Source of the DNA: a cyanobiont of Ornithocercus magnificus
Lineage (GTDB): Bacteria; Cyanobacteriota; Cyanobacteriia; PCC-6307; Cyanobiaceae
Direction of reading: 5' to 3'
Assembly: GCA_007996965.1 (NCBI GenBank)
Contig: BIMP01000002.1
Location: forward strand, 1-44,742
Length of the DNA stretch: 44,742 bases
Both the position numbers and the translations under genes were made by a program. The notes beneath the pieces are model-generated. The model saw nothing but the letters and a program-made list of their open reading frames with translations, searched no databases and had not been told where the DNA came from. Position 1 is the stretch's first letter, and each line of letters opens with the position of its first letter. Below, piece after piece: positions 1,093 through 39,450 of the stretch.

Positions 1093-1095
1093 AAG

Positions 1096-2630: not shown

Positions 2631-4253
2631 TTGACTAACAAACTCTTCTTTGGGGATTGCCTAGATGTGATGAGGACACTCCCCGAGGAGTGCTGTGACC
2701 TCATCTACCTAGACCCCCCCTTCAACTCCAATGCTACCTACAACCTTCTGTTTGCCTCCCCGACTGGGGAGCAGGCAAGGGCACAGATAGAGGCATTTGA
2801 CGACACCTGGCACTGGGGTGAGCAGTCAGCAAGGGAGTTTCACGAAATTCAAAAGACTGCTCCAACAGACGTTTCCGATATGTTGGTGGCATTGATTGAC
2901 TTTCTTGGGAAGAGTGATGTAACAGCATATCTCACAATGATGACCAGCAGACTGCTGGAAATCAAAAGACTAATGAAAGAAACTGCCAGCATTTATCTTC
3001 ATTGTGACTCGTCAGCATCACATTACCTGAAGGTCATTCTTGATGGCATATTTAGGGCAGACAACTTCAGGAATGAGATTATCTGGAAAAGAACAACGGC
3101 AAAGTCTTTAATGACCAAGAGAATGCCGAGCAATCACGACATCATCTTTTATTATACAAAAGGACCAGATTACACATTCAATCAAGATGCCCTATATCTT
3201 CCATACGACGAAGAGAACTTACCAGAAAAGACAAAGGCAAAATACAAATACAAAGACAACAACGGCAGGAGATACCGTTTAGACAATCTTATCAACCCTA
3301 ATAGCAACCGACCAAACCTCACATACGAGTTTATGGGCATTACCAGAGTATGGAGATGGACACGGGAACGAATGGAAGAAGGTTATAAGCAGGGGATTGT
3401 TATTCAGACGAAAGCAGGAACCGTCCCCCAAATGAAGAGATATCTTGACGGACAAAAAGGCATTCCCATTGATGACGTATGGACAGATATTAATCCACTA
3501 AACTCTCAGGCACAAGAGAGACTTGGTTATCCAACTCAAAAACCATTGGCATTATTAGATAGAATTATACTAACTTCTACCAATGAGGGAGATGTTGTAT
3601 TAGACCCATTCTGTGGTTGTGGGACTGCTGTTCACTCAGCACAGAAAAATAAAAGAGACTGGATGGGAATAGATATCACTCATCTTGCCATCTCCGTTAT
3701 TGAACGAAGATTGAGGGATGCTTTTCCTGAGTGTAAGTTTGATACCTTAGGAACACCAAGAGATTTTGAGAGTGCTACTAATCTTGCTGAGAGGGACAAA
3801 TACCAGTTCCAGTGGTGGGCACTTTCATTGATTGGTGCTCAACCATACAAAGATAAGAAAAAGGGTGCTGACGGTGGGATTGACGGACAAATATATTTTG
3901 ATGATGGAAGTCCGAGAAAGATACTTGTTTCCGTGAAAGGGGGAATGAATGTATCTGTATCAATGATTAGGGATTTGATTGGAACAGTTAAGAACAACAA
4001 GGCAGAAATTGGCATCTTTCTAACTCTTGCCAAACCGACCAAACCAATGGTCAACGAAGCAATCAATGCTGGTTTTTACGATAGTGAGCACTTTCCGAAT
4101 AAAGAGTTTCGCCGTATTCAGATACTTACCATAGAAGGTCTAATGAATGGAACTGAACGAGCAGTATACCCAGACCTAGCTCAGGGGGCATATAATTTCA
4201 AGAAAGCACAGAAAGAAACTGATGCTCCAATTCAGCAGTCATTGGGCATCTAG
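2631..4253 (+). CDS. Beta-class DNA methyltransferase fused to an Mrr-like nuclease domain
   Basis: The protein has 540 residues and starts at TTG 2631, directly after an in-frame TGA. Residues 1-390 are a DNA amino-methyltransferase: the catalytic motif DPPF is at 28-31, and the SAM-binding motif DPFCGCGT follows at about 324-331, the order that defines the beta class. Residues about 395-520 match the restriction-endonuclease-like tail seen on some of these enzymes, with GADGGIDG (acidic residues) and LVSVKGG (lysine), consistent with a PD-(D/E)XK fold. It may therefore methylate and cleave, or the tail may only bind DNA. No separate specificity or nuclease gene is adjacent. It lies 66 bases after the integrase and shares its A-rich codon use, so it is probably cargo of that element. 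The gene appears intact. Confidence 0.85.
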   Translation: MTNKLFFGDCLDVMRTLPEECCDLIYLDPPFNSNATYNLLFASPTGEQARAQIEAFDDTWHWGEQSAREFHEIQKTAPTDVSDMLVALIDFLGKSDVTAYLTMMTSRLLEIKRLMKETASIYLHCDSSASHYLKVILDGIFRADNFRNEIIWKRTTAKSLMTKRMPSNHDIIFYYTKGPDYTFNQDALYLPYDEENLPEKTKAKYKYKDNNGRRYRLDNLINPNSNRPNLTYEFMGITRVWRWTRERMEEGYKQGIVIQTKAGTVPQMKRYLDGQKGIPIDDVWTDINPLNSQAQERLGYPTQKPLALLDRIILTSTNEGDVVLDPFCGCGTAVHSAQKNKRDWMGIDITHLAISVIERRLRDAFPECKFDTLGTPRDFESATNLAERDKYQFQWWALSLIGAQPYKDKKKGADGGIDGQIYFDDGSPRKILVSVKGGMNVSVSMIRDLIGTVKNNKAEIGIFLTLAKPTKPMVNEAINAGFYDSEHFPNKEFRRIQILTIEGLMNGTERAVYPDLAQGAYNFKKAQKETDAPIQQSLGI

Positions 4254-4923: not shown

Positions 4924-5823
4924 ATGATCCGCATCCAAAAACCCCTCGCTGGCATCTGCTTCAATCTCATCAAGAGCTGGGTAGAGGTCGCCCGCCGCGG
5001 CAAAGGCGGCGATATTGACGCCGACGGCACACCTTGGACCAGGCTGACAGCCCGCGAGCTGCGCGATCAAGTCCTGAGCGGCTTCTCCACCGAAGTCAGT
5101 ACAAGGACGGTCTACAGAGCTCTGGACTACCTGGTGGAATTAAAGTTGGTCCGACGCGAGAAGCGGAAGCAGCGCCGTCGCTGGAGCAATCAAGACTACT
5201 GGTACACCATTCCTACAGAGGAACAGACAGCCGCGGTCTCTAGTGGTTCAGAGACCAGCAAAACCCAGTCTGGGAGCCAATTGACACATGTGGCGAATAC
5301 AAGTGCACAAGTTGGACACATACAAGCGCCACTGATGGCGAATACTCTAAATACTCTTTCTAAAGAGTCAGATCTAATAAAACCGCCGCCAGAAGGTATG
5401 CCGCCACCGGCGACGGATCTGGGGGAAAAGGAGTTGGCTTTAGAACCAGCTGATCTGCAGACGGTGCTTAGCTCCATTCCGGCTCCCAAGACCGCTGCTC
5501 AGCTAGTGGAAGAGCGAGAAAAAGAAGAGAGACAAAGGAAATTAGAAAAGCAAAGGACAAAGCAGCAGGCACAGGCCAACGACGCCAGAAAGGCTGCTGC
5601 AGCTGCGCGAAATATCAATAACCAAAACTGGATTGCCGCTGAACTGGGCAAGATTCGGCAGAAGATGACCCAGAACCAGGCCAAAGGGTTTAAACCAACA
5701 GCCCCGATCACCTCGCGAAAGCGGGTCTTAGAGCTACCTGAGAGGCCTGTAGGCAGGGATAAGCAGGGTCGAACCGTGAAGGAGGTCTGGGTCTCAGGCT
5801 TTAAGCATCTAGTGGTGGATTAA
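4924..5823 (+). CDS. Winged-helix DNA-binding protein of the repeated module, copy 1
   Basis: The protein has 299 residues. Residues 1-100 look like a winged helix: the segments LTARELRDQVLSGFSTEVS and RTVYRALDYLVELKLVRREK fit the recognition helix and wing, and KRKQRRRWSNQDYW is strongly basic. Residues 100-185 are a Ser/Thr/Pro-rich linker. Residues 195-240 are a charged coiled coil (EEREKEERQRKLEKQR), followed by a conserved basic C-terminus with VGRDKQGRTVKEVWV. It could be a phage-type regulator or replication protein; I do not recognise a named family. A near-identical gene lies at 17163-18062 and the start of a third at 44709. In copies 1 and 2 it is followed by a terL remnant. The gene is intact, unlike its downstream neighbour. 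Confidence 0.7.
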   Translation: MIRIQKPLAGICFNLIKSWVEVARRGKGGDIDADGTPWTRLTARELRDQVLSGFSTEVSTRTVYRALDYLVELKLVRREKRKQRRRWSNQDYWYTIPTEEQTAAVSSGSETSKTQSGSQLTHVANTSAQVGHIQAPLMANTLNTLSKESDLIKPPPEGMPPPATDLGEKELALEPADLQTVLSSIPAPKTAAQLVEEREKEERQRKLEKQRTKQQAQANDARKAAAAARNINNQNWIAAELGKIRQKMTQNQAKGFKPTAPITSRKRVLELPERPVGRDKQGRTVKEVWVSGFKHLVVD

Positions 5824-5904: not shown

Positions 5905-7043
5905 ATGACTAACGATGTAGAAGCCATAGAAGGGGCTTTACAGGGAGATTTTTAGATTCTTTCTCAGCGCCCTCTGGCAACAGCTTGGCCTGCCCCCACC
6001 GACACCGGCTCAGCTGGCCATCGCCGAGATGCTGCAACACGGTCCCGACCGCCTCATAATCATGACGTTTCGCGGAGTCGGTAAAACTTACATCTCTGCT
6101 GCTTTTGCGCTTTGGAATTACTTTAGAATAGCTAGATACAAGCCAGTCGGACAGCGAAAAATTCCCCTTACGACTGAGTGATTTGATTATCACTGCGGTA
6201 AATTCCACCTCAGCTCCAGAAAACATTATTTGGCTAGCAGATAAGACCAACTTGATCAAAGATCTGCCCCACGCAGGCCTGCCTGGTGACTATTTCTATG
6301 GCCCAGCCCAGATTCAAGGTGAGTGGGGTCCGTATACAGACTCCATCTGCTATGTCGATCCGAGCGGTAGAGGAAGTGATGAGTCGGTAGCTGCCTATGC
6401 TTCACAGCGAAACGGAATTATCTATCTACATGAAGTTCGCGCCCACCTAGATGGCTACTCAGATGCGACGTTGAGATCTTTTCTAAGCGGCTGTGTGAAG
6501 TATAATATCAAGAGGATGCTAGTTGAGACTAACTTTGGCGATGGAACGGTATGTGAACTGATTCGCAAGATTGCCGCTGAAATGTCGATTCGAATAGCAA
6601 TCGATGAAGAGTCTGTTTCCGGGCAAAAGGAGGCACGTATCATAGATACTATCGAGCCGGTGATGAACCAGCACTGATTGGTTGTTAACCGCTCTGTGAT
6701 CGAGTCGGACTACAACTCCAACGAGGAATTGTCCATAGAGAAGCGCATGGCTTACCGGCTCGTACACCAGCTGAGCTATATGAACCGTACACGCAACTGC
6801 CTGCGCCACGATGACCGCTTGGAAGCTGTAGCTGGAGCAGTGCGGTATTTCCAGAACTCGTTCAACCTCTCAGCTGCCCTGGAGATCGAGAAAAGGAAGC
6901 AAGAGGACTGGCAGGATTTCTTGCAATGGGAGCTTGAAGATCCGCAAGCCTCTATCGAAGCGCTGGCACGAGGATTAAATCTGGAGCAACGCAGAGCTGC
7001 TAGGGCACTAAGGGAAAGCTACGACTGGATTCATAGACGGTGA
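5905..7043 (+). pseudogene. T7-type large terminase (DNA maturase B), internally deleted
   Basis: The start is ATG 5905 (MTNDVEAIE), broken by TAG after 16 codons. The frame FLSALWQQLGLPPPTPAQLA leads to the Walker A region FRGVGKTYISAAFALW. After about 100 codons the sequence jumps (near 6170-6185, with a frameshift) to the C-terminal nuclease part: DPSGRGSDESVAAY, VETNFGDGTVCELI, IIDTIEPVMNQH. Then comes TGA (6675-6677) and LVVNRSVIESDYNS up to the end at 7043. These blocks line up in order with phage T7 gp19, but the Walker B half of the ATPase, roughly 270 residues in T7, is missing. It cannot be a working packaging motor. It directly follows the intact winged-helix gene. Confidence 0.8.
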
Positions 7044-11309: not shown

Positions 11310-11745
11310 CTACTTATATCTTTTCAAAGACTCGGCTGAATTGGAAAGAGCCTCTTCGATTTCGACTGGGGTGACCTTCGGGGCAATCTCAAGTAGCTCA
11401 TCCACAAAATCATTAACCTTGTTTCCTTGAAAGGAATAATTCGGAAACTTCCTTTGGGCTAAGCTAAGAAATGAGAATGCGTCGAGTGGAGCCCGTTGTT
11501 GTTGCGCAGCCGTTGTCTGGTCTTGAAAATCAGAGGACTTGGCTTTCGCTGTGTATTCTTGATCTTTAGTCTCATCTCGGATATTCAGGAATTCTTGATC
11601 AGCCAGCTCGAATAATGCTGCTAGGCAATTAATTCGGCGCTTGAGCTTGTGGGGAATTTTCTTTTTGTATTTTATCTTGTGATCGAGCACGCTCCACGTA
11701 TCTTGGATAATCGTCCGAAGCTGAACTTCAAATGCAAAGTGATGA
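11310..11745 (-). pseudogene. C-terminal part of a RelA/SpoT-type (p)ppGpp synthetase
   Basis: The frame ending at TAG 11310 reads, from about 11745 downward, FAFEVQLRTIIQDTWSVLDH, KIKYKKKIPHKLKRR and INCLAALFELADQEFLNIRD, followed by a helical tail (FSFLSLAQRKFPNYSFQGNK). FEVQLRTIIQDTW-LDHKIKYK is the last conserved block of the synthetase domain, including the Glu-x-Gln motif that binds the acceptor nucleotide. The ATP-binding part and the central catalytic motifs are absent, so it cannot make (p)ppGpp. Upstream it runs without a gap into the SIR2 gene, one frame off. It is best read as the remains of a second gene joined to SIR2 by deletion. Confidence 0.75.
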
Positions 11746-14080
11746 TATCGCTGGTTCCGCTCGTCCTGGAGACTCTGCGCGGGTAGATGCTGGACAGCTC
11801 TGCCAAGCGCGCTTTGGCGGTGGCGCCCAGGGCGAGGCCGGATTTGTTCAGTTTGGCCAGATGCATCCAGACCGAATAATCTACGTCCGGTTTCTTTCTA
11901 TACATTTCGTACATCTCGCGCAGCGGGCCGTTCAGGATGGCAGCTTCCAGACGCTCCTGGGTGGGTTCTGCCAATTGCTGCCCTTGCAGTTCTAGTAGAC
12001 TGAATACCTCCTGTTCCGTACTGGGAGACCACAGCCACCAGGCTCCATCGACCAACAGCCACTCCACCCACTGATCGGATGCGATAAATGCGCCTTTGCT
12101 AGCAGCAAACAGAGCCAGTCTTTTAAAGGTTGGATACGGTTGCCTGAACCACTCCTGGGCAATTCGTGTAGCGCGCTCACCGTCTTGTCTGCAAACCGCC
12201 AGCCAGGCATCGCGCAGCATCTCGATCAAGATCACCCAGTTGTAGAACCGGTTCTGCGGGTGTGAGATTATCGATGGCAGATACCATCGCGAAGGGTCTT
12301 CGTGTTCGTCTGCCTTACCCAACTCGCGCAGCAAGTCCAATGCATCGCACAGCAGGTGCTGGATGTCTTCCAAAAGCAGAGGCAAAGCATCGACCCAGTG
12401 CTGGTCACATAAGACTTCACATAAGGCTTCTTGATTGGCGGCCAGCATGAGTTGCCAGTGCACCAATTGCCACAAGCTCGGCTCATCGGTGTTCTCAATC
12501 TCATCGCCCCAGTAAAGCGGTTCCTCCAAGGTCACCTGGGGGGCGAGCAACTCGCGCAACTCCAGGCGCAGCGTAGCAGTCAGGCCATCCTGTTCCAGAC
12601 GTTCTTTCCAGCAATCTTTCCAGCAATAGAAATTGGTGTTGCTCCAATAGGTGTTGCGCTGAGATTTCACTCGCCCGCTGAGCAGCAGGCGCCAGAGCGT
12701 TCGCATCAAGGGGCCGGGGATAGCCCTCGGCGCTTGTGAGCGGATCTGCTCCAGCTCGGCGGTCTTGCCTTCACGCTCCAGCCGTGCAAAATCATCTAGT
12801 TTGCGTCTGATCAGCTGCTGGAAGTTGCTGTGCAACTGGCCACCAAGTTGCGTGAGCCAGATGACCAGCCTCGAGTCATCAAGGTGGCGCACCAACCAGT
12901 CGGCTAGATGGCGCATCACTTCGTCCCACGGTTCTTCACGAGGGGAGATGCAGGAGCGCAAGGAGCGGGCCAGATAAGTGTCTTGACGCTCCTTGTTCAA
13001 GAAGACATCCAGCCAGTCCAGCGACGGGCAGGGGTTGAAGTTGGCAAAGCTTTTTGCCGGCAAGCCCGATTTGTCCGACAAGGCCCAAAACACCCCGCCG
13101 ATGAAGTCGTCTTGCTGTTGCTGAGCACTGGCCGATGGCCGTGCCAGGGCATGCCTAACGACTATGCTCTCCTTGCCCGTTACCCTATCGCGGTAGCTGT
13201 CTGCCCAGGCGTGCAATGTATTGTGCAGCGCGGAATGATCATGACTGTCGGTGGGCTTTTGATAGAGGATGGGTTTAACGCCTTTGACTTGCCACTCGAG
13301 AGTCTTGCGCTTGTGGTCCTCCTGCCCCGGCTCGCAGGCGCCCAGTGCCCAGGCCTGTTGCGTGATCTCGCCAAGCATACGGTCAGTGGCGAGCGCATCC
13401 ATTATGTAGCGCATCACCGGGTCGCTAATGCTGTAACCCACGAAGCAGACAACATAGTTGCGGAACAACGCGCTCACAAACCGGGCAGCCCAGCCTTCGG
13501 TGAGGTAGGCCAGCCCGAAATCGCCGCTGGTTACCACCAGGTTATTCAGGATCGTCTCGTCTTGTTTAGCCGGTAACAAGCCGTGCAAGTGGACTAGCCC
13601 GTTCCAGCGGCTATTTTTCGGAATCGGCAACATCGGCGCGTCATAAGACCTGAATGGTTGCTTGATGCGCTCGGCTGCCGAGTGAAAAATGCGGTCGAAG
13701 TTTGTAGTGACGAGTCGCAGCGAGCCCTCACGGCTGCGCGCCAATCGCAGCAGGGCAGCCTGCGTGTCGGTGGCGCCTTTGCGGTCCAACTTTGGTTCTA
13801 ACGCCTTCGCCAGTGCACTGCGGAAGAATATACGCTGCTCCGGCAGGCGCTGCTCCAGCAGATTGAGCGTGACGTCGAACTGCTCACGTTCGAAGGCCTG
13901 TTTCTCTTTTTCTGAGAGCTTCGTGTGAGTCAACTTATATATCTTCTCAACCAGACCTTTGAAGCTAGGAAGACCGGCAGGGTAGGAAATGCCGGCTCCG
14001 CAGAAAAACACCACTCGGCCCTCTTCATGCGCCTGCAAGAGCTCATCGGGAATATCCGGGGTATCTGGGGCGAATTGCAT
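11672..14080 (-). CDS. SIR2-domain NADase-type anti-phage defence protein, altered C-terminus
   Basis: The protein has 802 residues and starts at ATG 14080, preceded by GGAAG at a good distance. Residues 20-290 are a SIR2 domain: FFCGAGIS at about 25-32, the TTNFD loop with its catalytic Asn at 125-129, and HLHG with the catalytic His at 164-167. The remaining 500 residues are helical and Trp/Leu-rich, as in defence sirtuins that sense phage and deplete NAD+. Inside that group the closest type is uncertain (DSR- or Sir2-like). The last 25 residues (SRTSGTSDIITLHLK onward) are a frameshifted reading of RelA/SpoT DNA, so the native end after LAELSSIYP is lost. It stands alone on the minus strand, with no partner gene upstream. 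Activity depends on whether the altered end is tolerated. Confidence 0.75.
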   Translation of the reverse strand: MQFAPDTPDIPDELLQAHEEGRVVFFCGAGISYPAGLPSFKGLVEKIYKLTHTKLSEKEKQAFEREQFDVTLNLLEQRLPEQRIFFRSALAKALEPKLDRKGATDTQAALLRLARSREGSLRLVTTNFDRIFHSAAERIKQPFRSYDAPMLPIPKNSRWNGLVHLHGLLPAKQDETILNNLVVTSGDFGLAYLTEGWAARFVSALFRNYVVCFVGYSISDPVMRYIMDALATDRMLGEITQQAWALGACEPGQEDHKRKTLEWQVKGVKPILYQKPTDSHDHSALHNTLHAWADSYRDRVTGKESIVVRHALARPSASAQQQQDDFIGGVFWALSDKSGLPAKSFANFNPCPSLDWLDVFLNKERQDTYLARSLRSCISPREEPWDEVMRHLADWLVRHLDDSRLVIWLTQLGGQLHSNFQQLIRRKLDDFARLEREGKTAELEQIRSQAPRAIPGPLMRTLWRLLLSGRVKSQRNTYWSNTNFYCWKDCWKERLEQDGLTATLRLELRELLAPQVTLEEPLYWGDEIENTDEPSLWQLVHWQLMLAANQEALCEVLCDQHWVDALPLLLEDIQHLLCDALDLLRELGKADEHEDPSRWYLPSIISHPQNRFYNWVILIEMLRDAWLAVCRQDGERATRIAQEWFRQPYPTFKRLALFAASKGAFIASDQWVEWLLVDGAWWLWSPSTEQEVFSLLELQGQQLAEPTQERLEAAILNGPLREMYEMYRKKPDVDYSVWMHLAKLNKSGLALGATAKARLAELSSIYPRRVSRTSGTSDIITLHLKFSFGRLSKIRGACSITR

Positions 14081-15516: not shown

Positions 15517-16878
15517 GTGAAAATGAAGGAAATCTGCAAATTTGCTGATGATTTGCTTGATCTACGTGCATTCTCAGAGCGGCTCGAGAAGTTTATAAAA
15601 GTTGATCATCGCTTTGTTCAAGGTAGTCTTGTTATTGCACTGAGCTCAAAGTTTGGTTTTGGGAAAACCACGTTTCTCAAGATGTGGAAATCTAAGCTTG
15701 AATGTAGTGAAGAGAAATGGGTGATAGTAGAGTTGAATGCATGGGAGAGTGATTACTATGGAGATCCACTATTTGCCATTGTTTCAAGTTTAGTAGCTTC
15801 TTTAAAGAACAGTAAACTATCCAAAGAGAAAAATAAACTCATTAATAAACTTACTAATGCTGTCCAGGATGCTGCATGGCTCTCGGTAGAGCTCACTATG
15901 CAATTGATAAGAAAGCAGTCTGGCATCGATCTTAATAAAGCAAAAGATTTTGTTAGCGAAAAGAGGAATGCTCGGGAGGCATTAAACCGCGTGCCAATGG
16001 ATGCGTTCTCGGTTTACCAAAGTCGGAAAGACAGCATGACTAAGCTGCAAGGCGGAATCAATGAATTCGTTACAGATAACGAACAGATAATTTTGTTCCT
16101 TGTCGATGAACTCGACAGGTGTCGGCCTGATTATGCCATTTCCTATCTTGAGACAATTAAGCACATCTTTAATGTACAGGGTACGGTCTTCATACTTGCT
16201 GCGGATCGGCGGCAACTCGAGAACTCTGCGAAAAAAGCGTTTGGCCAAAATCTAGATTTCGATGAGTATTATCGTAAGTTTATCCACAGGGAAGTTACGC
16301 TTCCACCAATTACAGAACCTAGCTACAAAAAGCTAGCTGAGTCGTATGTTAACTATTACTTAGAGCAAGAAGGCTTACGAAGCTGCTGTGTAAATATCCG
16401 CCAGGTTCAGACCGAAAAAATTATTGAGTTAGTTGGAGCGTTGAAACTGACACCCCGACAAATACAAGAAGTATTTCGAATAGCTGGCCATATCCTTGGA
16501 TTCTCAGAAGAAGAGAGAGGCGGAGTGTTCCCGCAGGGTGTGCTGGCGGTATTTGCTATGGCAGTGTTTAAAGTTGGCAATCCTGGAATGTTTCACCTCT
16601 TAGGATCTGGAGAATATGATCCCGAAAAAATTGGTGAATTTTGCACAAATCTAAATCGACCGGGAGACAACGAAAAAACAAAAAGAAAGAAACAGGACAT
16701 CTGGCTTAAATTTTTTCAAAACTGCAGTGGGCTGCCGCCAGGCAGGGAAGCTATTCTATGGGGATCAATGACAATGGAAGGGTTTTTCCATCGAGTCCAC
16801 CGACAGATTGAGCAACTTTCCGAATGGGACTATTTCGCTAAGGTACCGCCGCGATATCGGCAAAACCTGGGTCTATAG
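15517..16878 (+). CDS. KAP-family P-loop NTPase
   Basis: The protein has 453 residues from GTG 15517; ATG 15523 is an equally good start. Walker A is SSKFGFGKTTFL (about 43-54), Walker B IILFLVDELDRCRP (191-204) and the sensor-like strand VFILAADRRQL (224-234); this set and its spacing define KAP NTPases. Many KAP proteins have membrane helices inserted in the P-loop domain, but none is seen here, so this one is probably soluble. Residues 320-453 are a charged helical tail. KAP proteins are common in phage-defence islands, which fits the SIR2 neighbour, but a defence role is inference. Its stop codon TAG lies within TATAGAGCCGG, where the repeated leader of module copy 2 begins. Confidence 0.8.
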   Translation: MKMKEICKFADDLLDLRAFSERLEKFIKVDHRFVQGSLVIALSSKFGFGKTTFLKMWKSKLECSEEKWVIVELNAWESDYYGDPLFAIVSSLVASLKNSKLSKEKNKLINKLTNAVQDAAWLSVELTMQLIRKQSGIDLNKAKDFVSEKRNAREALNRVPMDAFSVYQSRKDSMTKLQGGINEFVTDNEQIILFLVDELDRCRPDYAISYLETIKHIFNVQGTVFILAADRRQLENSAKKAFGQNLDFDEYYRKFIHREVTLPPITEPSYKKLAESYVNYYLEQEGLRSCCVNIRQVQTEKIIELVGALKLTPRQIQEVFRIAGHILGFSEEERGGVFPQGVLAVFAMAVFKVGNPGMFHLLGSGEYDPEKIGEFCTNLNRPGDNEKTKRKKQDIWLKFFQNCSGLPPGREAILWGSMTMEGFFHRVHRQIEQLSEWDYFAKVPPRYRQNLGL

Positions 16879-17162: not shown

Positions 17163-18062
17163 ATGATCCGCATTCAAAAACCCCTCGCTGGCATCTGCTT
17201 CAACCTCATCAAGAGCTGGGTAGAGGTCGCCCGCCGCGGCAAAGGCGGCGATATTGACGCCAACGGCACACCGTGGACCAGGCTGCCAGCCCGCGAGCTG
17301 CGCGACCAAGTCCTGAGCGGCTTCTCCACCGAAGTCAGCACGAGGACGGTCTACAGAGCTCTGGACTACCTGGTGGAATTAAAGTTGGTCCGACGCGAGA
17401 AGCGGAAGCAGCGCCGTCGCTGGAGCAATCAAGACTACTGGTACACCATTCCTACAGAGGAACAGACAGCCGCGGTCTCTAGTGGTTCAGAGACCAGCAA
17501 AACCCAGTCTGGGAGCCAATTGACACATGTGGCGAATACAAGTGCACAAGTTGGACACATACAAGCGCCACTGATGGCGAATACTCTAAATACTCTTTCT
17601 AAAGAGTCAGATCTAATAAAACCGCCGCCAGAAGGTATGCCGCCACCGGCGACGGACGTGGAAGAAGAGGGATTGGCTCTAGAACCAGCTGATCTGCAGG
17701 CGGTGCTTAGCTCCATTCCGGCTCCCAAAACTGCTGATCAGCTGCAAGAAGAGCGGAAGAAGAAGGAGAGACAAAGGGAATCAGAGCAACAGCGAATAAA
17801 ACAGCAGGCACAGGCCAACGAGGCCAGAAAGGCTGCTGCAGCTGCGCGAAATATCAATAACCAGAACTGGATTGCCGCTGAACTGGGCAAGATTCGTCAG
17901 AAGATGGCCCAGAACCAGGCCAAAGGGTTTAAACCAACAGCCCCGATCACCTCTCGAAAACGGGTTTTGGAGCTACCTGAGAGGCCTGTAGGCAGAGATA
18001 GACAGGGTCGAACCGTGAAGGAGGTCTGGGTAGCAGGCTTCAAGTACTTGGTGGTGGACTAG
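17163..18062 (+). CDS. Winged-helix DNA-binding protein of the repeated module, copy 2
   Basis: The 299-residue product is almost the same as that of 4924-5823. The winged-helix N-terminus differs at only a few residues (D to N in the GDIDANGTPW segment, T to P in LPARELRDQ). Most changes are in the linker and coiled coil (EERKKKERQRESEQQRIK). Across 17440-17650 the DNA is identical or nearly so, more conserved than the flanks, which fits gene conversion or recent duplication. It sits after the KAP gene and before a short terL remnant. Family not recognised. Confidence 0.7.
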   Translation: MIRIQKPLAGICFNLIKSWVEVARRGKGGDIDANGTPWTRLPARELRDQVLSGFSTEVSTRTVYRALDYLVELKLVRREKRKQRRRWSNQDYWYTIPTEEQTAAVSSGSETSKTQSGSQLTHVANTSAQVGHIQAPLMANTLNTLSKESDLIKPPPEGMPPPATDVEEEGLALEPADLQAVLSSIPAPKTADQLQEERKKKERQRESEQQRIKQQAQANEARKAAAAARNINNQNWIAAELGKIRQKMAQNQAKGFKPTAPITSRKRVLELPERPVGRDRQGRTVKEVWVAGFKYLVVD

Positions 18063-30599: not shown

Positions 30600-30679
30600 T
30601 GCAGCAGAGGGAATCTAATGGGAATGGGTGCAGGCCACTTCTAAAACCACTCTCACGATTTCTCAGCTCTCTCCACCCC

Positions 30680-30870
30680 ATCCCCAACACTTAGAGGTGA
30701 AGTGAGCGCTGCTAGCTCTGGTGAGTGGATTACCAGGAGGATTTTGTTGCTGGTGTGAGCAGCTGACGGCGACCAGTTAAAGCTGGCCTTGATCAGCACT
30801 TGTTGTCGATCATGGCGAACTTGTGGTGCACATCCTTGAGATTTGCCTCTCAGCTTTGTTTCTCAGGGAT
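30680..30870 (-). pseudogene. Phospholipase-D-type nuclease tail, copy 1 (badly decayed)
   Basis: The minus strand reads NLKDVHHKFAMIDNK, the HxK(x)4D core of the second PLD half, then a frameshift, then ASFNWSPSAAHT. It matches copy 2 (34531-34833) and copy 3 (39157-39450). The N-terminal half of the nuclease is absent in all three. It is divergent to integrase 1. Confidence 0.6.
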
Positions 30871-31010
30871 GCTCATGCCTCTCAAGCCACTAGTTAAGCC
30901 AGAAGGACTTGGAGGCGATGAAAGAGCTACAGCGGGCTACGAGCTACAGGAATGTCTTGGCTTTTTTCTAGGGGCGGCTTTAAGCCAGATCCCAGATGAG
31001 GAGCTGGATC

Positions 31011-32081
31011 TTGAGAAAAGCACCTGCGCTGCGGAATAACAACGGTGCTCTTCAAATACGGGTGAGGCTTGAGGGCAAAGACCATTTCATCAACCGCTTG
31101 GGGAGTGTCGATGACCCCGTGGCACAAGCCAAAGCCCAGTCGATTTCAGCAGAGATTTGGAGCGATTTTCAGCAGGGTCAATTGGACTGGAGCTTGTCGA
31201 GGTATCAACCACTGGTGGAGGGCAAGAACCCAGAGCTGCTTGATGCTCTTGAGAGGTTGATGAAGGAGAAACGGCAGGCCAGAACCACCCATGCCTACAG
31301 GCTTGTTCGTCGGTATGGGGAACCCATCCGCACTCAGGCGGAGGTGTAGGCATTTGTGGAGTGGATGGATAGTGAGGGATTAGCGGCTTCTACCCAAGCC
31401 ACGATCTTGAGCACGATCCGATCGGTTCAACCCAAAAACAAGGCGTTGGGATCTGTGGTGATCAAGGTGCCAACGAGAAGTGTTCAAGAGGAGGTGCTGA
31501 CCAAGGACGAGATCAAACAGGTGTTGGCTGACCTGAAGCAGAACGAAGCTTGGTATTACCCGTGCTTTGCCTCGTGGCTTGGGACTGGCTTACGCAATGC
31601 GGAACTAATTGGACTGACTTGGGACTGTGTTCGTTTGGACGAGGGGGAACTGCTGATCAGCAAGAGCCTTAAGCGTGATGGCGTGGCAACACACCAGAGA
31701 CGCTGGGGCAGCACCAAGACAGGCAAAAGCAGGGTGGTGCCAATCAATCAGGAGCTGGTGTTGCTGCTGAGAGCACATCAGGAGCGGATGAGGAAGTTGG
31801 GGCTGGATATCAGGACAGGCTTGGTGTTCCTGACGCCTCGAACCCATCAGCACCTGTATGACAGTGGTCTGGAGAGGGTCTGGAAGAGAAGTCAGAAACG
31901 AGTTGGATTAGTCCCGAAGCGGTTGTATGCCCAACGACACTCGTTTTTGAGCCATGCCTTGGCGTTGGGGAATAGTCCTGCTGATCTCGCTGCTGTGGCA
32001 GGGCATCGAACCGAGGAACTACTGAAGACCTATGCCAAGCCAACGGGTCGGATCAAGCTTCCTTGTTGGCAGGTGGCGTAA
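31011..32081 (+). pseudogene. Tyrosine integrase of element A, one in-frame TAG
   Basis: The likely start is TTG 31011, eight bases after GAGGAG; this ribosome binding site and start are conserved in integrase 2. Residues 1-110 are the arm and core-binding parts, ending at QAEV-TAG (31347-31349). The frame then continues AFVEWMDSEGLAASTQATIL into the catalytic domain. Key positions are present: Arg in GTGLRNAELIGLTWD, Lys in STKTGKSRVV, YAQRHSF, GHRTEELLKTYAK with the nucleophile Tyr. Apart from the TAG the gene is whole. A single base change, a sequencing error or suppression could all account for it. A similar integrase follows at 34944. Confidence 0.85.
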
Positions 32082-32385
32082 TCCAAAAAGTAGGTAAGGC
32101 GAGAGGCTACAAAAGTGGGTGCGTCCGTGAGAAATGTTGTTTTAAAACTAGTTATGAGAATGAACGAGGTCGTGGGGCTAAGGCTTTTAGCGATCAGGTT
32201 GATTGTGAATTCATCACTAAAAGCCCTGTTTAAAGGGTGATCCTTATAAATAGTGCTGGTGCTTGTCTTGATCACTTGGTGGATCGAGGATCATTTGGAT
32301 GAGTGCTGAACAGAAGAGAGTATTGACGCCTTGCTGATTGGCAGGGTGTTAGTGGATCAGGTGTATCAATAAGGAGAAGCTAAAA
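32082..32385 (+). promoter_or_regulatory. Upstream region of the Rep gene, possible origin
   Basis: There is no gene. CCCT-GTTTA-AGGG (around 32224-32236) can form a small hairpin. GATCACTTGG (32270) and GATCATTTGG (32289) are direct repeats 19 bases apart, with further GATCA units at 32206 and 32356. Short repeats and a hairpin just before a Rep-like gene fit a replication origin or nick site, but none is proven. GGAGAAG precedes the ATG at 32386. Confidence 0.3.
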
Positions 32386-32937
32386 ATGCCCTATGGACTA
32401 GCAAGTATTGCTCAAAGACAACAAGCCAGAGCTTTAAAGAGAGGGATCAAGCAATTGATCCAACAGGAGCTTGAGGATGAGATGGACCCATGGTGGTTCA
32501 TCAGCTTCCACTATAACGACGGGAAAACAAATGAAGACCAAGCGATTAAGGATATGGGTGCTCTCAAGAACAAGCTTAAACGAGAGATTTATAGGAGAAG
32601 AGATCGAAGGATTAAAGGGGCAGGCTCATTTCTTTATCCCAAGATCCTTGTCACGAATGAGGTATCTCATCTAGGAACAGGTCAGTTCCATTCACATCTA
32701 ATTACAGAGGCTTTGCCAGAGAAGCTAAATAGTCAAAGGATGATGGAGCTGCTGTTCAAACGAATTTTGCCCAGCAAGGTCAAGGCACTATCGAGATGGA
32801 AAAGCGTTGATGTCCAGTGGATCCATCAAGACCCAGAGGATCTCAAGCGATTGGCGAGTTATTTGGGAAAGCAGGTGAATTTGGATTATATGGCACTTGA
32901 CGGGTTTAATAGCGATTTTTCAAAGGAGAAGCAATGA
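32386..32937 (+). CDS. Candidate HUH-type Rep (rolling-circle initiator or relaxase-like)
   Basis: The protein has 183 residues from ATG 32386 with a GGAGAAG ribosome binding site. Three motifs appear in the order of HUH endonucleases: a hydrophobic strand, DPWWFISFHYND (about 43-54); FHSHLI (106-111), giving His-x-His flanked by hydrophobics; and ASYLGKQ (about 164-170), giving Tyr-x-x-Lys. The single Tyr and YxxK spacing resemble rolling-circle Rep proteins. HUH enzymes nick one strand, stay bound through the Tyr and start rolling-circle synthesis. No helicase domain is attached. Its stop overlaps the start of the next gene (ATGA), which makes a coupled operon with two small DNA-binding-type proteins. 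The family assignment is by motif only. Confidence 0.6.
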   Translation: MPYGLASIAQRQQARALKRGIKQLIQQELEDEMDPWWFISFHYNDGKTNEDQAIKDMGALKNKLKREIYRRRDRRIKGAGSFLYPKILVTNEVSHLGTGQFHSHLITEALPEKLNSQRMMELLFKRILPSKVKALSRWKSVDVQWIHQDPEDLKRLASYLGKQVNLDYMALDGFNSDFSKEKQ

Positions 32938-33092
32938 AGCGTAAACAGTTGACGATTACATGCCCGCAAGATCAAGGTGAAGAACTCTTTGACCTTTTGG
33001 TGGAGTTAAGGGATAACCGCTATTGGAATATCTCTAAGTTCTGCCGTGAGGCGATCACAGAAAAGCTTGAGCGTATGGAGTTATTGAAATGA
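32934..33092 (+). CDS. Small ribbon-helix-helix protein, coupled to Rep
   Basis: The protein has 52 residues. ATG 32934 overlaps the Rep stop. It begins MKRKQLTITCPQDQ (strand), then GEELFDLLVELRDN (helix) and YWNISKFCREAITEKLERM (helix), the classic RHH layout of Arc/CopG-type repressors. A likely role is repression of the Rep operon or help at the origin; CopG-like copy-control proteins sit beside rep genes in plasmids. The stop overlaps the next ATG. Confidence 0.55.
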   Translation: MKRKQLTITCPQDQGEELFDLLVELRDNRYWNISKFCREAITEKLERMELLK

Positions 33093-33226
33093 AGGCGATC
33101 CAGATCAGGCTGAATGCTGTAGAAGAACAGATGCTGAAGGAAGTTCGGAAGCGCAACAAGGTGTATAAAGGCCTAGAAGCGCTTCTAAAGCAGCAAATCA
33201 AGGCTGAGTATCAGAAACTTGTTTAG
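33089..33226 (+). CDS. Second small RHH-like protein of the Rep operon
   Basis: The protein has 45 residues, and its ATG overlaps the previous stop (ATGA). It reads MKAIQIRLNAVEEQMLKEV, then KRNKVYKGLEALLKQQIKAE: strand, helix, helix. It resembles a minimal RHH fold, but at this size the call is weaker. Three genes in a row with 4-base overlaps indicate tight co-translation. Confidence 0.45.
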   Translation: MKAIQIRLNAVEEQMLKEVRKRNKVYKGLEALLKQQIKAEYQKLV

Positions 33227-33252: not shown

Positions 33253-33492
33253 TTAGACGAACTCCAAATTGCCTGAAGTCAGTTCAGGAGCGCCTTTGAG
33301 GATGGCAATGATGCCGCCATCGCCAAAGCCTTTGTCTGAGCCATTTTCGTTCAAGTAGAGCCCACCTTTCTTTTGGTCATAGAGAAGGTCGAAGTCTTGC
33401 TTGGCGAGTTTCTTTTTTACCTCTTTCTTGTAGGCTCCAGTAGTAAATGTGGGATTCTTGCTGAAGTATAATATATCACTATATTGATTCAT
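33253..33492 (-). CDS. C-terminal module of an RTX/Ca-binding-type secreted protein
   Basis: The frame has 79 residues. The C-terminal part, FDLLYDQKKGGLYLNENGSD then GFGDGGIIAILKGAPELT, is the ending found on many large hemolysin-like or cadherin-like secreted proteins in marine cyanobacteria, where it follows Ca-binding repeats and the secretion signal is near. Here only the end is present, with a short leader from MNQYSDILYF. It may be a remnant of a large gene or a small protein using the same tail. Confidence 0.5.
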   Translation of the reverse strand: MNQYSDILYFSKNPTFTTGAYKKEVKKKLAKQDFDLLYDQKKGGLYLNENGSDKGFGDGGIIAILKGAPELTSGNLEFV

Positions 33493-33768: not shown

Positions 33769-34455
33769 TTAGATGTCGTTAATCTTCCAAAGCGCAAGGG
33801 TTTTATCGGCGTAAGAACCGTTGCCTTCGCTACAGTTTTCATGAATAATTTCGATTGGTTCGCCAAAGTTGAAAGGCTTTAAGGTTAGATTCAATGTCCG
33901 CCAGTCGCCAGTGGTGATGTTGTGATTCTTTCTTCTGTCGAAAAAATGGGTTGTGAGGATAAATTTCGAGCTGCTTCTCTTGATATTATTGATTGCGTCT
34001 TTAATGTCGCTGAAGGATAAATGTACTAGACAGTCTCTGCAGATTATTAAGTCTGCGAAGGGGAGCTTGTCCCGAGTGATGTCTTTTTTGACAAATTCTA
34101 AATTGTTGCTTGCATAGAGAATCTTATTTTTGTCAATTAATTTGCTTACGATATCAGCGCCTGTGTAGTTAATTTTTTCGTCGAGCTCAACATTTTTAAA
34201 CCAGAAAAAATCGCCGCATGGAATGTCTAATATGCTCTTTATGTGATATTTGTTAAATAGTTTTGGGAGCTCCAATATAAGAGTCGAAGTCTGTTCGAGG
34301 TTTGACCCAGATCCAGACTTAGAGCTTGGATCTCCCCATCTATTGTTTGTGTAATAGTCTGTGAATATTTTCTCGCTGGTTTTAAATCTTAATGGAAAGC
34401 TCTTGATAAATTTTTTAAAGCTAAGGGGTAAAAGCTTTTTGATTAATTCCTTCAT
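33769..34455 (-). CDS. AT-rich class I SAM methyltransferase
   Basis: The protein has 228 residues. The N-terminus is Lys/Phe-rich (LIKKLLPLSFKKFIKSFPLR). Motif I is IKSILDIPCGDFFWFKNV, followed by YTGADIVSKLIDKN and FADLIICRDCLVHLSFSDI. It belongs to methyltransferases often found in surface-polysaccharide or phage gene sets; the substrate is unknown. AT content and Lys/Asn/Ile use are much higher than in neighbours, so it was probably acquired from a low-GC source, for example an HL Prochlorococcus or phage. It is intact and lies at the right end of element A next to PLD copy 2. Confidence 0.7.
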   Translation of the reverse strand: MKELIKKLLPLSFKKFIKSFPLRFKTSEKIFTDYYTNNRWGDPSSKSGSGSNLEQTSTLILELPKLFNKYHIKSILDIPCGDFFWFKNVELDEKINYTGADIVSKLIDKNKILYASNNLEFVKKDITRDKLPFADLIICRDCLVHLSFSDIKDAINNIKRSSSKFILTTHFFDRRKNHNITTGDWRTLNLTLKPFNFGEPIEIIHENCSEGNGSYADKTLALWKINDI

Positions 34456-34530
34456 TTGGGTGAATTTTTGCCTTTATGTATCTTACCTTAAGTTTGAATC
34501 TCAAGCCACTCTCCCTTTCTCTCAGCTTTC

Positions 34531-34833
34531 TCAGTCCCTCTTCACCCCATCCCCGCAGCGGATCCGCTGACGGTCGAGTTTGCGTTGGAGGCGTGGTGTG
34601 ATCCCCAGTTCGGCGCCTTGCCAGAGGCGATTCATTTCACGGGTGAAATGGGCTGCCATCTGAGGTGAATCGATCACCAGCAGGGTCTCGTCGTTGGTGT
34701 GAGCGGCTGAGGGCGACCAATTAAAGCTCCCAGTGATCACCGTTTTGTTGTCGATTACGGCGAACTTGTGGTGGACATCCTTGAGATGTGCCTCTCAGCT
34801 TGGTTTCTCAGGGATTTGAGCCAGTAGTTGAGC
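34531..34833 (-). pseudogene. Phospholipase-D-type nuclease tail, copy 2
   Basis: The best preserved C-terminal half reads HLKDVHHKFAVIDNKTVITG, SFNWSPSAAHTNDETLLVID and then REMNRLWQGAELGI. HHKFAVID is the catalytic HxK(x)4D and the following GSFNWS motif is typical. A frameshift near 34800 separates it from LLAQIPEKPS, and no N-terminal HKD half exists. It is divergent to integrase 2 with a conserved spacer. After its stop CTCAAGCCACTCTCC (near 34500) is shared with copy 3. Confidence 0.75.
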
Positions 34834-34943
34834 CACTTCTATCGTTTGCTGCCTTGAGAACGGATACGGCTACGAATGGCTAAGTGAAATTGGCTTCAGG
34901 TTAGGAGCGGCTTTAAGCCAGATCCAAGATGAGGAGCTGGATC

Positions 34944-35853
34944 TTGAGGAAAGCACCAACCCTGAGGAGTAACAAAGGTGCGTTGCAGGTTCGGGTCTGT
35001 CTGGATGGGAAGGATTACTTCATCAACCGCTTGGGAAGGTTGATGACCCTGTTGCCAGAGCACTAGCCCAGGCGATCTCTGCCGAGATCTGGAGTGATTT
35101 CCAGCAGGGTGTCCTGGACCTGAGTTTGAACCGCTATCGCCCGCTGGTGGACGGGAGGGGCCTGGATTTGCTGGATGGTCTTAAGGAGTTGATGGAGCAG
35201 AGCAAGCAAGGACGTGTCATCCATACCTATCGGACTGTCTTACGGTTTGGGCCTCCCCTCAAGACCAATCAAGAGGTTCGGAGCTTTGTGGAGTGGATGA
35301 AGAAGGAAGGACTGATAGCGTCCACGCAGTCCACGATCCTCAGCACCATTCGCAGCGTTCAACCGAAGAACAAAGTGTTGGCATCAGTGGTGATCAAGGT
35401 GCCAACCAGAAGTGTCTAGCAAGAGGTCCTCAGCAAGGAAGAGATCCAACAGGTACTGGCAGACCTCAAGATCAATGAGAACTGGTTCTAACCCTACTTC
35501 TTGCTGTGGATGAGTACAGGACTGAGGAATTCAGAACTGATTGGTTTGACGTGGGATGCCGTTCGGTTGGAGGACGGTGAACTCTTGATCAGTAAGACCC
35601 TCAAGCGAGATGGGACTGCTACCCACAAGAGGTTTTGGGGTCCGACCAAGACAGGGAAGAGCAGAGTGGTTCCGACCAATCCCCAGGTGTTGGAGATGTT
35701 GAAGAAGCATCACGCCACGATGAAGGCACTGGGTCTCTATACCAAGAGTAGACTGGTGTTGCGACTCCCAGGTTCTATGGGCATCTATAATGACAGTGGT
35801 CTAGAGCTGGTCTGGAAGCGGAGCCAGAGGCGGGTTGGATTGGAGCCAAGACA
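34944..35853 (+). pseudogene. Tyrosine integrase of element B, broken and truncated
   Basis: This is homologous to integrase 1, with the same GAGGAG then TTG start. A frameshift near 35035, TAG at 35417-35419 and TAA at 35489-35491 interrupt it. Catalytic Arg (STGLRNSELIGLTWD) and Lys (TKTGKSRVV) are readable, but homology stops at RVGLEP (35853), before the RH box and the Tyr nucleophile. It is inactive. It may be an older insertion than element A. Confidence 0.85.
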
Positions 35854-36150
35854 CTGGAATATTCTTCATATTATCAATTTAATTATTATTACTTTAGGCT
35901 AATTATCCTTTTTTGTCAAGTATACTGACCTGCTGACTTAAGTAAGAAACTTAATCCTTCATGTATAAATAACAAAGCCAGGATGAATTCCGCTTAAAGG
36001 CCCTATTGTACTCTTGGGGCAGAATGTCGCTACAGCGGGGATCAAGAGAAAATTATAATTAAAAAATAGAGAGTTAAATCTCTCTCAGTATGCCATCTAA
36101 GTCCTTGCCCTGTAAGCATAAATATTTACAAGAATCGTCGGTACACAAAA

Positions 36151-36345
36151 ATGAACACAGTAATTCAGCAAAGAGAAGTCCCGCTTCGATACCAGATTTC
36201 CTACAAGGAAAGCGAGAAGGGTTTGCTGCTAATGGAAAGTGAATTGATGAAGCACTTTAGGATGGGTAGCTCTAATCTCCACAAGTATTTCGTGAGAGTT
36301 AATTACAACTTGCTTAAGAAGCCAAATCCATTCATGTCGTTGTAG
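36151..36345 (+). CDS. Small protein, RHH-like
   Basis: The protein has 64 residues: RYQISYKESEK, then GLLLMESELMKHF and SSNLHKYFVRVNYNLL, a strand-helix-helix order that could be an RHH fold. It is first in a run of five small frames (36151-37313) with gaps of 2 bases or overlaps. No strong ribosome binding site is seen. Confidence 0.45.
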   Translation: MNTVIQQREVPLRYQISYKESEKGLLLMESELMKHFRMGSSNLHKYFVRVNYNLLKKPNPFMSL

Positions 36346-36347
36346 GA

Positions 36348-36566
36348 ATGAAAGACACTCGCTTGGTTCCAAAGCTTCTGGAGCATCTATACAAAGAAAG
36401 GGAAAGAATTGGATCTACTGGTCACCGTGTTGATCCTGACCTGAGAAAAGCGTATGAGTTTGTTAACCAGGAGATCCAAAATCTGCAGATGATCATCTTT
36501 GAAAGTCAGTATAAAGAATTCAGTAATAAGCTATCCGATCTATTGAAGGCATCTAATGCTGTTTAG
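36348..36566 (+). CDS. Small helical hypothetical protein
   Basis: The protein has 72 residues and starts 2 bases after the previous stop. It is largely helical and charged (LVPKLLEHLYKERERIGS, AYEFVNQEIQNLQMIIFE). Its stop overlaps the next start by 11 bases. Function unknown. Confidence 0.5.
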   Translation: MKDTRLVPKLLEHLYKERERIGSTGHRVDPDLRKAYEFVNQEIQNLQMIIFESQYKEFSNKLSDLLKASNAV

Positions 36567-36900
36567 AGACTATGTAGAACTACTTTATCAAGCCTATTTA
36601 CAAGACAAAGGATATCTACAAACCTTAAGAGACATGATCCGATCTCAAGAGTTCAGCAAAGACCAGATTTATAACCCAGCATTTGAGAACTGGGAAGACA
36701 TCAGACATGAAGACCCATCAACTCACCATCAGGGAAGGTGGAAATATCACCCGAACCCGATCAATCCAGAAGCTGGAGTATTTGTGTTTGAAGAGGTTCA
36801 GAAGTCTAAAAAGCAATGGGGAATTATCAAAGACTGTGTGAGGAGGAAGCAAAAGGGTGATCAATATAAAAGACAACAAGCTAGAGAAGATGATCGATGA
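36556..36900 (+). CDS. Hypothetical protein of the small-gene cluster
   Basis: The protein has 114 residues: a helical N-terminus (YVELLYQAYLQDKGYLQT), a central segment rich in Asn/His/Pro (HHQGRWKYHPNPINPEAG) and a basic tail (RRKQKGDQYKRQQARE). It overlaps both neighbours, so it is co-translated. Nothing identifies a family. It lies in element B at the place where element A has its Rep gene. Confidence 0.5.
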   Translation: MLFRDYVELLYQAYLQDKGYLQTLRDMIRSQEFSKDQIYNPAFENWEDIRHEDPSTHHQGRWKYHPNPINPEAGVFVFEEVQKSKKQWGIIKDCVRRKQKGDQYKRQQAREDDR

Positions 36901-37000
36901 GTTCCTGAAAAGAACTCACTACTCAAGTCCCATCGAATATCTAGAGAGCAAGATTAAGAGAGATCATGCCATGGTGATGAAAAACAAAAAAGTTGGATAG
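36857..37000 (+). CDS. Small RHH/CopG-like protein
   Basis: The protein has 47 residues from GTG 36857, with AGGAGG 11 bases upstream, inside the end of the previous gene. It reads VINIKDNKLEKMIDEFLKRT then SSPIEYLESKIKRDHAM, a strand followed by two helices as in CopG-type proteins. It is parallel to the RHH genes of element A. Confidence 0.4.
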   Translation: MINIKDNKLEKMIDEFLKRTHYSSPIEYLESKIKRDHAMVMKNKKVG

Positions 37001-37006
37001 TGATCA

Positions 37007-37313
37007 ATGGTCACTTTTAAGGACTTCAGGCATAAAACGAATGAGATCCTACTTTTAAACTACGAAGAGAGCGCTTTCTACATTTACCGAACAGACACCA
37101 AACTGTGCTTGCCCGTGGTTTACAAGGTTCTGGAAGCGGTTCCTCACGATCTTTTGGTACTAGGTCCCTGTTTGGCGTCAGGGGCAGCAGTAAGACCTTC
37201 ACGAACGCCTACAGCAAGCGTTTACACGTGGATTATTCGAGGAAAACCCAAGCAAAAGAATCCGTTTCAAGGGCATCTGGGATGCTCAGGGGAACTTCCA
37301 CGACTTCGATTAA
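37007..37313 (+). pseudogene. Unknown small protein with a probable frameshift
   Basis: From ATG 37007 the frame reads VTFKDFRHKTNEILLLNYEE and SAFYIYRTDTKLCLPVVYKV. From about 37194 a different frame is more protein-like: DLHERLQQAFTRGLFEENPS and KRIRFKGIWDAQGNFHDFD to TAA 37311. One frameshift around 37150-37190 would join them into a protein of about 100 residues. Family unknown. It is last in the small-gene cluster. Confidence 0.35.
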
Positions 37314-37660
37314 GGGCTTCATGAACTTCTGGACTGATCCGAATAGCTTTGTGCAGATTAAAATTGGTATTTGAATCGACCTTTATTCGAAACCTGATTA
37401 CAGTCTCCGTGTACTCCTCTTCAATGACTGACAAGTGGCATAGCCCAGCACGTAAATATTGACATCACTAAATGCTTAGATATTGCTCTACTTGAAAGCT
37501 AGCTTATACTAGATTTCTTGCTTGTACATCCTCTTTGCTCCAATCCTTATAAGAACAATTTCCCGATCCTTCCTTAAGAACGTGAATATCGGTAGACCAC
37601 ATCCCGGCGCATCTATTGCCAGAGATGTTATAATGAAACCTATTAAAGACATGCAAGTCA
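37314..37660. other. Spacer before the methyltransferase
   Basis: No supported frame. An AT-rich patch just before 37661 may contain the promoter of the methyltransferase gene, but no clear boxes can be assigned. Confidence 0.35.
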
Positions 37661-38342
37661 GTGTATACCTGTATTGATTTGTTTGCTGGTTGCGGGGGGC
37701 TTAGTACAGGCTTGGAACTTGCCGGATTTCAAGTTCTTTTTGCAAATGAAATACATCAGTCTTATTCAACATCCCTTAAGGCGAATCATCCTGGGACTTT
37801 GGTAGATGTAGACGACATTCGTCTAACCTCACCCTGCTTAATCTACAATTCTCTTGGTATAAAGAGAGGCGAGCTGGACCTAGTAGCAGGGGGGACCGCC
37901 TTGTCAGGGATTTAGTGTAAACGTTCCAGTTCGTAAGGATTCTGATGAAAGAAATCATCTTTTCCACGACTTCATTCTTTATGTAAAAGAGTTCGAGCCT
38001 AAGCTAGTCCTCATCGAAAATGTGCCCGGTATGGTTTCATACGAGAAGAGCGAAACGGTTAGATCAATCAAAAGTGCTCTGAAAGAATTAGGATACCTTG
38101 TTGAAGCCCGTATTCTTTTTACTCCGCACTATGGTGTTCCTCAAATAAGATGGCGCTCTATCTTTTTGGCGTCAAGGCTTGGGCATGACCCTCTAAGTCT
38201 TTTCCCTTTGCCCAGTTACAAAGCAAAGGGGATCTCTAACTTTACGACTCGTCTCGATTATGCCTATAAATTCTTTGGGTACTTCATCGCAATATGTCTG
38301 GACTACCCAGTCCATGCTCATTTGGGCTCCTGTGCTAATTGA
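37661..38342 (+). pseudogene. C5-cytosine DNA methyltransferase, frameshifted and 3'-truncated
   Basis: Motif I is TCIDLFAGCGGLSTGLELAG. The catalytic motif IV should read GGPPCQGFSV, but a run of six G (37889-37894) shifts the frame to GGTALSGI and a stop at 37915; with five G the motif is perfect. In the next frame come LVLIENVPGMVS (motif VI, ENV) and HYGVPQIRWRSIF (motif VIII). Homology ends about 38280, so the target-recognition domain and motifs IX-X are missing. It faces the NotI-type endonuclease gene. The G-run could be a slippage hotspot, but the missing 3' end makes this copy dead. Confidence 0.8.
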
Positions 38343-39091: not shown

Positions 39092-39156
39092 TGGATTCCC
39101 GATCTTGCATTCGATTTAGCTATCTCTCAAGCCACTCTCCTCTTTTCTCTGCCTGC

Positions 39157-39450
39157 TCAACCTCTTTCCAATCCACTCTTACACTTTGCACGTTGCCAAT
39201 CAAGCTTGCGTTTGATTCGTGGTTTGATTCCCAATTCAGCTCCTTGCCACATTCTGTTCATTTCATGGGTAAAATGTGCAGCAATCTTGGCTGAATGAAT
39301 CACCAGGAGAGTTCCGTTGTTGGTATGAGCGGCAGCGGGTGACCAGTTGAAGGATCCAGTGATCACTTTGCGCTTGTCGATCACAGCGAACTTATAGTAT
39401 GACCTGTTAGAATATTTATCAAGGCTTTCTGCAATAAAAGTGTGGAACAA
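39157..39450 (-). pseudogene. Phospholipase-D-type nuclease tail, copy 3
   Basis: It reads RSYYKFAVIDKRKVITGSFN, WSPAAAHTNNGTLLVIHSAK and then HEMNRMWQGAELGIKPR. The catalytic His of HxK is Tyr here (YYKFAVID), so this copy is inactive. It lacks the upstream half and has no integrase beside it. It lies at the right end of element B. Downstream of its stop CTCAAGCCACTCTCC (near 39127) is shared with copy 2. Confidence 0.7.

Follow-up and report, generated by a model that had tools for sequence, protein, structure and literature searches.

The window analysed here is a stretch of 44,742 nucleotides from a cyanobiont of Ornithocercus magnificus (Cyanobiaceae; contig BIMP01000002.1 of assembly GCA_007996965.1), and it carries on its forward strand three short genes that appear to form a unit: rep for a putative replication initiator, followed by two genes for very small proteins, rhh1 and rhh2 (Table 1). 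All three reading frames and the ATGA overlaps at both junctions of the trio are present where the first-pass annotation had placed them, and they are conserved in other Cyanobiaceae. AAGGAG-type ribosome-binding sequences lie 5' of rep and of rhh1, the second gene of the trio, and rep starts 304 nt 3' of a tyrosine integrase frame.

Table 1. Features of the rep locus and of the tandem array around it (positions in the window)
Feature	Positions	Strand	Remarks
Left attachment repeat, PLD-family gene 3' fragment	30640..30830	-	Left end of element A, start near 30800
Tyrosine integrase of element A	30996..32081	+	PF00589; in-frame TAG at 31347-31349
Intergenic region int/rep, candidate replication origin / rep promoter	32082..32385	+	Conserved blocks, 10 elements
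Conserved motif CTACAAAAGTGGGTGCGT, candidate nick or protein-binding site (hypothesis)	32107..32124	+	
Two conserved blocks TATAAATA and ACTTGGTGGATCGAG, consensus ACTCGGTGGATTGAG	32244..32288	+	Alignment of elements
rep, predicted HUH-type replication initiator (183 aa)	32386..32937	+	E92, H102-x-H104, Y159-L-G-K162
Small gene 1 (rhh1), 52-aa ribbon-helix-helix-like protein, probable repressor	32934..33092	+	
Small gene 2 (rhh2), 45-aa protein, RHH-like by pattern only	33089..33226	+	
79-aa cargo ORF	33253..33492	-	No family match
SAM-dependent methyltransferase, cargo of element A	33769..34455	-	PF13649 3e-6
Second PLD 3' fragment	34499..34815	-	Right end of A, left end of B
Decayed integrase of element B	34929..35902	+	72% DNA identity to A integrase over 1.2 kb
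Third PLD 3' fragment	39125..39450	-	Right end of tandem array

A PLD-family gene is represented by three 3' fragments, which are spaced 3,944-3,945 and 4,626 nt apart and mark a tandem array in which element A (the trio plus a methyltransferase, ~3.9 kb) is followed by a decayed element B. The PLD copy at 39157-39450 matches PF13091 (PLDc_2) at 6.7e-11, and a search of this genome for an intact PLD gene found only C-terminal fragments; relatives carry intact PLD genes of ~460-550 codons. The integrase of element A is 52-75% identical to the integrases of other elements, and the part of it that follows the stop codon still matches PF00589 at 8.6e-19, as does one fragment of the element B integrase at 7e-9. 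The trio had originally been described as part of an integrase element, and an element with flanking repeats is indeed there, but its integrase is interrupted by the in-frame TAG, so the window copy is probably stranded and immobile. No rep was seen in element B (34929-38342), which holds, besides its broken integrase, a fragmentary frame (37661-38342) that resembles C5 cytosine methyltransferases.

Several other genes of the window were noted in passing. A protein encoded at 11672-14080 (minus strand) matches the first ~750 of the ~1,250-1,275 positions of the defence protein Dsr1 (SIR2 domain; PADLOC E 0 and 1.2e-125), and is apparently truncated at its C-terminus. The frame at 15517-16878 (plus strand) encodes a KAP-like P-loop protein that matches PDC-S20, a family of candidate defence proteins in PADLOC (E 1.6e-68). 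Two nearly identical 299-residue proteins encoded 12 kb apart (4924-5823 and 17163-18062, plus strand) suggest a duplicated or repeated element. By reading alone, two adjacent frames at 6183-7043 (plus strand) look like a putative phage terminase large subunit broken by a stop. A second, different tyrosine recombinase-like gene lies in two frames at 979-2564 (plus strand) and is followed by a DNA methyltransferase at 2631-4253 (PADLOC MTase_II/III).

Homologues of the window Rep with 49-58% identity occur in about 10 other genomes among the 400 Cyanobiaceae genomes that we searched. Weaker homologues were found there as well (23 genomes at E <= 0.01), and a profile search detected the family in 35 of the 400 at E <= 1e-4, while every Rep match among 386 genomes sampled across the phylum came from the Cyanobiaceae. 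A single-sequence search with the window Rep gave no match in IMG/VR, GTDB contigs, phages, plasmids or the PDB, and the family came to light only by whole-genome search within the Cyanobiaceae and by profile searches. Close homologues keep the order of integrase, a gap of ~300 nt, rep, rhh1 and rhh2, mostly with the same -4 overlaps. The three-gene block, which the first-pass annotation had proposed to look for elsewhere, thus recurs in other genomes, and this includes distant Rep clades, in which two small genes lie 3' of rep in many loci and the place of the integrase is taken by a serine resolvase or another tyrosine recombinase. Pairwise dN/dS values of rep, rhh1 and rhh2 are well below 1 and mostly 0.05-0.25 in pairs drawn from relatives only, the window copy being too diverged for inclusion, so the three reading frames are genuine genes that selection maintains in these relatives.

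The FHSHL and YLGK motifs that had first suggested an HUH-type Rep correspond to residues 101-105 and 159-162 of the protein. Across 17 homologues with identities down to ~22%, the proposed conservation of His-x-His and tyrosine is borne out: His102 and Tyr159 never vary, and His104 and Glu92 hardly do. The order of motifs is an acidic residue, HxH and YxxK (E..HxH..YxxK), with YLGK, YLSK, YLNK or YIVK in most homologues; one clade shows YYSYR at this position of the alignment instead, and HIN replaces HxH in one distant homologue. The geometry of the predicted fold had been named beforehand as a point on which the assignment depends, and the HUH layout is present in an AlphaFold model built from 6 sequences (pLDDT 75, pTM 0.72). 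In this model, a strand (35-43) and a helix (50-70) precede two strands (87-91 and 102-108, the latter with HxH), and the C-terminal half comprises a helix (117-130), a strand (138-145) and a helix (150-163) that bears Tyr159. The HUH domain fills the whole ordered part of the modelled 183 residues, and an SF3 helicase would not fit in beside it.

The best matches of this model in the VIA comparison are HUH initiators, with SIRV1 ORF119 on top (2x3g; Z 9.0 over 110 residues, rmsd 2.9, 10% sequence identity) and the origin-binding (OBD)/nuclease domains of AAV2 Rep next (Z 7.7-7.5). Chains of the unrelated ribosomal protein S6 score up to Z 7.4 against the same model, and we therefore place the weight on the SIRV1 ORF119 match together with the motifs. 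A Foldseek search of the model against the PDB returned nothing at E < 0.001, and the viral structure library BFVD gave 44 matches at E <= 1e-3, of which the named ones are mostly replication proteins of microviruses and ORF2/G2P-type proteins. Of the 17 family members, 6 have a match to PHROG 3584 ("replication initiation protein"; best 6e-6), and individual runs also gave a match to it for the Rep of locus L030 and that of a circular relative described below. AAV Rep68 ranks first in a PDB profile search at a non-significant E of 0.64, and Pfam DUF6762 reaches E 0.015 with the window protein and at best 4e-4 with its homologues. At their curated cut-offs, neither Pfam nor NCBIfam identifies any family member as a replication protein, so that these genes probably carry the annotation hypothetical. 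Taken together, the conserved residues and the modelled fold support the idea that the 183-residue protein is an HUH-type Rep, which would then nick DNA site-specifically in the manner of rolling-circle initiators.

HUH relaxases and Reps have a common fold, and some integrative mobilizable elements use Rep-like relaxases (PMC7563843). The protein could thus be a relaxase of such an element, which would be nicked at an oriT and moved by the conjugation machinery of another element, with replication as a secondary activity. We consider this unlikely, since no relaxase family of Pfam or the PHROGs matches, the best fold matches are replication initiators and the gene is coupled to probable repressors.

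Both small proteins had been taken for RHH-like, and the two differ in how well this holds. The profile of the 52-residue protein matches ORF56 of pRN1 in the PDB (2k9i) at E 6.8e-4 and CopG weakly (E 0.37); a C-type lectin that outscored ORF56 was judged spurious because the match contains no significant stretch. In its model, two helices follow an extended N-terminus, as expected of an RHH monomer, with the strand unassigned in the monomer, and Foldseek with so tiny a model was uninformative. From its sequence profile and model, this protein is probably a ribbon-helix-helix repressor of the CopG/ORF56 type. The 45-residue protein encoded by rhh2 is kept in position and sequence in other elements and resembles RHH proteins in pattern only: its profile gave no RHH match in the PDB, and RHH_4 was reached at 0.075 by one member only. 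The two proteins may act as repressors that control copy number. Elements of the uvrA type (see below) seem to be without rhh1, and its apparent absence from two of them, the circular relative and locus L033, suggests that one small protein may suffice.

Because RHH proteins also serve as antitoxins, and weak CcdA matches were seen, we also considered a leftover or domesticated cassette of nuclease and repressor, derived from an IS200/IS605-type transposase or resembling a toxin-antitoxin pair, without any role in replication. The decay of the window locus would fit such a cassette, as would a Y1_Tnp gene (1.8e-10), separate from rep, that lies downstream of it in some elements. However, none of the 17 Rep homologues matches Y1_Tnp (PF01797) at E <= 0.05, rep is followed by a pair of small genes at many loci, the HUH gene is under purifying selection in relatives, and the locus is linked to recombinases and attachment repeats. 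This makes the cassette a most improbable explanation.

The trio lies ~300 bp 3' of a tyrosine integrase in elements of 3.2-5.0 kb that are flanked by duplicated ends of a host gene, namely uvrA, the methylpurine-DNA glycosylase gene mpg or the PLD-family gene. At uvrA, locus L033 holds a 3.36-kb unit between repeats that are 93% identical. Units at mpg measure ~3.2-5.0 kb and are flanked by 5' fragments of this gene, such as the 284-nt repeats of 98.6% identity around the element of locus L029, and more than 20 relatives with an uninterrupted mpg across the junction represent empty sites. In two genomes (G192 and G252), several mpg 5' fragments lie at distant chromosomal sites, as if secondary sites had been used by mpg-type elements. 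Another genome (G114) holds a different Rep trio, PLD-type integrases and the remnant of an mpg-type element within 10 kb (locus L040, 9737-19901).

The circular relative is the IMG/VR contig IMGVR_UViG_3300023179_008711, which has 3,506 nt and a 127-nt terminal repeat and hence corresponds to a circle of 3,379 bp. Along with a uvrA attachment fragment, it carries the genes int, rep and rhh2 and one for an FkbM methyltransferase, with rhh1 apparently missing. An alignment that spans almost all of it gives ~84% identity with a uvrA-integrated element. The contig should represent the form expected of an excised element, although near-identical copies in tandem would give the same assembly. As a separate observation on cargo, the FkbM methyltransferase at 2503-3267 of locus L053 and the class I enzyme at 33769-34455 of the window are unrelated methyltransferases carried by two elements of the family.

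Neither capsid nor conjugation genes were seen in the 3,379-bp circle, so any transfer must borrow machinery from elsewhere. Borrowed conjugation would suit the relaxase explanation discussed above. Alternatively, the elements could be minimal phage satellites whose Rep amplifies the excised circle for packaging by a cyanophage, given their small size, a content of integrase and replication gene only, and the origin of one relative from a collection of viral contigs. Yet IMG/VR includes non-viral circles, the Reps that we tried gave no match in phage records, and genes for packaging or capsid remodelling or of phage derivation were not seen. We regard a satellite as very unlikely.

The gap between int and rep is a candidate origin region, and blocks common to ten elements (CTATAAAAGTGGGTGCGT, CATAAATA and a AGTGCTCACTCGGTGGAT-like block) were found in it. 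The 13-mer AAAAGTGGGTGCG occurs exactly once and at the same position of the gap in 7 of the 10 aligned elements, with near-matches in 2 more, and has one other exact match in the genome, within a purM-like gene. Other IMG/VR contigs with the 17-mer motif showed no match to int or rep (the circle aside), and we attribute these occurrences to chance. A hairpin origin was rejected: the 13-nt inverted repeat of the window (32182-32194 / 32213-32225) is absent from the other elements tested, no conserved stem-loop is common to the gaps of these elements, and folding of the window gap is not unusual (z -1.2). We propose that the nick site lies within this gap.

We therefore favour, with a probability of roughly 0.78, that the trio serves to replicate a small integrative plasmid that excises, replicates by the rolling-circle mechanism and is controlled by small repressors. 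In such a life cycle, the tyrosine integrase would insert the circle at a fixed place within a host protein-coding gene, which would be rebuilt on insertion because the element carries a copy of the gene end, and excision by the same integrase would yield the circle again. Rep would nick the origin, which probably lies in the 300 nt that separate int from rep, so that Tyr159 becomes joined to the 5' end and rolling-circle replication can proceed with host helicase and polymerase. The two small proteins would be translated from the rep transcript and keep copy number down by binding to the origin or to the promoter of rep, and reintegration would restore the end of the target gene. The anatomy of the elements is observed; excision, nicking, autonomous replication, the position of the origin and the role of the repressors are the predicted parts of this scheme. 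A more specific version would see a distinct picocyanobacterial family of helicase-less minimal integrative rolling-circle plasmids (down to ~3.2 kb), with two co-translated repressors, that use genes of DNA repair or nucleic-acid metabolism as switchable attachment sites. Inserting and excising the circle would then alter the end of such a gene (uvrA, mpg or PLD), and the life cycle of the element may in this way be linked to DNA damage; we find this version as a whole doubtful.

Integrative plasmids with an HUH Rep are a known kind of element, and the picocyanobacterial family is an unnamed one of this kind. The first-pass annotation knew of no named system with this trio, and our literature search, whose coverage did not extend to many subscription journals, found no published description of a Rep followed by two such small genes either. 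In plasmid pMV158, the gene for the CopG repressor precedes rep. The repressor gene comes before rep in pRN1 as well, whereas the picocyanobacterial trio has two small genes after rep. ORF56 is a transcriptional repressor encoded in the replication operon of pRN1, and the replication protein of this plasmid does not resemble rolling-circle initiators (PMC4234260). SIRV1 ORF119, the best fold match to our Rep, is a rudivirus Rep and HUH nickase with proven nicking and joining activity (PMC6668415), but it is an archaeal virus protein without any integrase context.

Site-specific integration together with an element-encoded rolling-circle initiator is shared with the AICEs of actinomycetes, where replication of pSAM2 depends on RepSA (PMC3218068), and with pCRESS plasmids, most of whose Reps belong to elements that are integrated site-specifically and lack virion genes (PMC6668415); a thaumarchaeal cryptic element is another integrated element with its own rolling-circle Rep (PMC6563490). 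AICEs encode a conjugative DNA translocase, whereas the picocyanobacterial elements are without conjugation genes, and no translocase gene was found among the ORFs of the 3.9-kb element A or the 3.38-kb circle. In pCRESS Reps the HUH domain is fused to an SF3 helicase, unlike in the helicase-less picocyanobacterial Rep of 183 residues. Compared to both groups, the present elements stand out by their size of 3.2-5 kb, their integration in protein-coding genes and the two probable repressor genes after rep. The tycheposons of Prochlorococcus and relatives are likewise tyrosine-recombinase elements of the same cyanobacterial family, described as 4-200 kb long with tRNA borders (PMC10872708), in contrast to the 3.2-5 kb elements in protein genes seen here; an already described tycheposon with this Rep is possible.

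If our interpretation is true, a self-replicating integrative element of 3-5 kb would be among the smallest complete integrative plasmids. To our knowledge, reports of plasmids in marine and lake picocyanobacteria are few. The family would be a plausible vehicle for single cargo genes, here methyltransferases, and may offer a starting point for a native picocyanobacterial vector.
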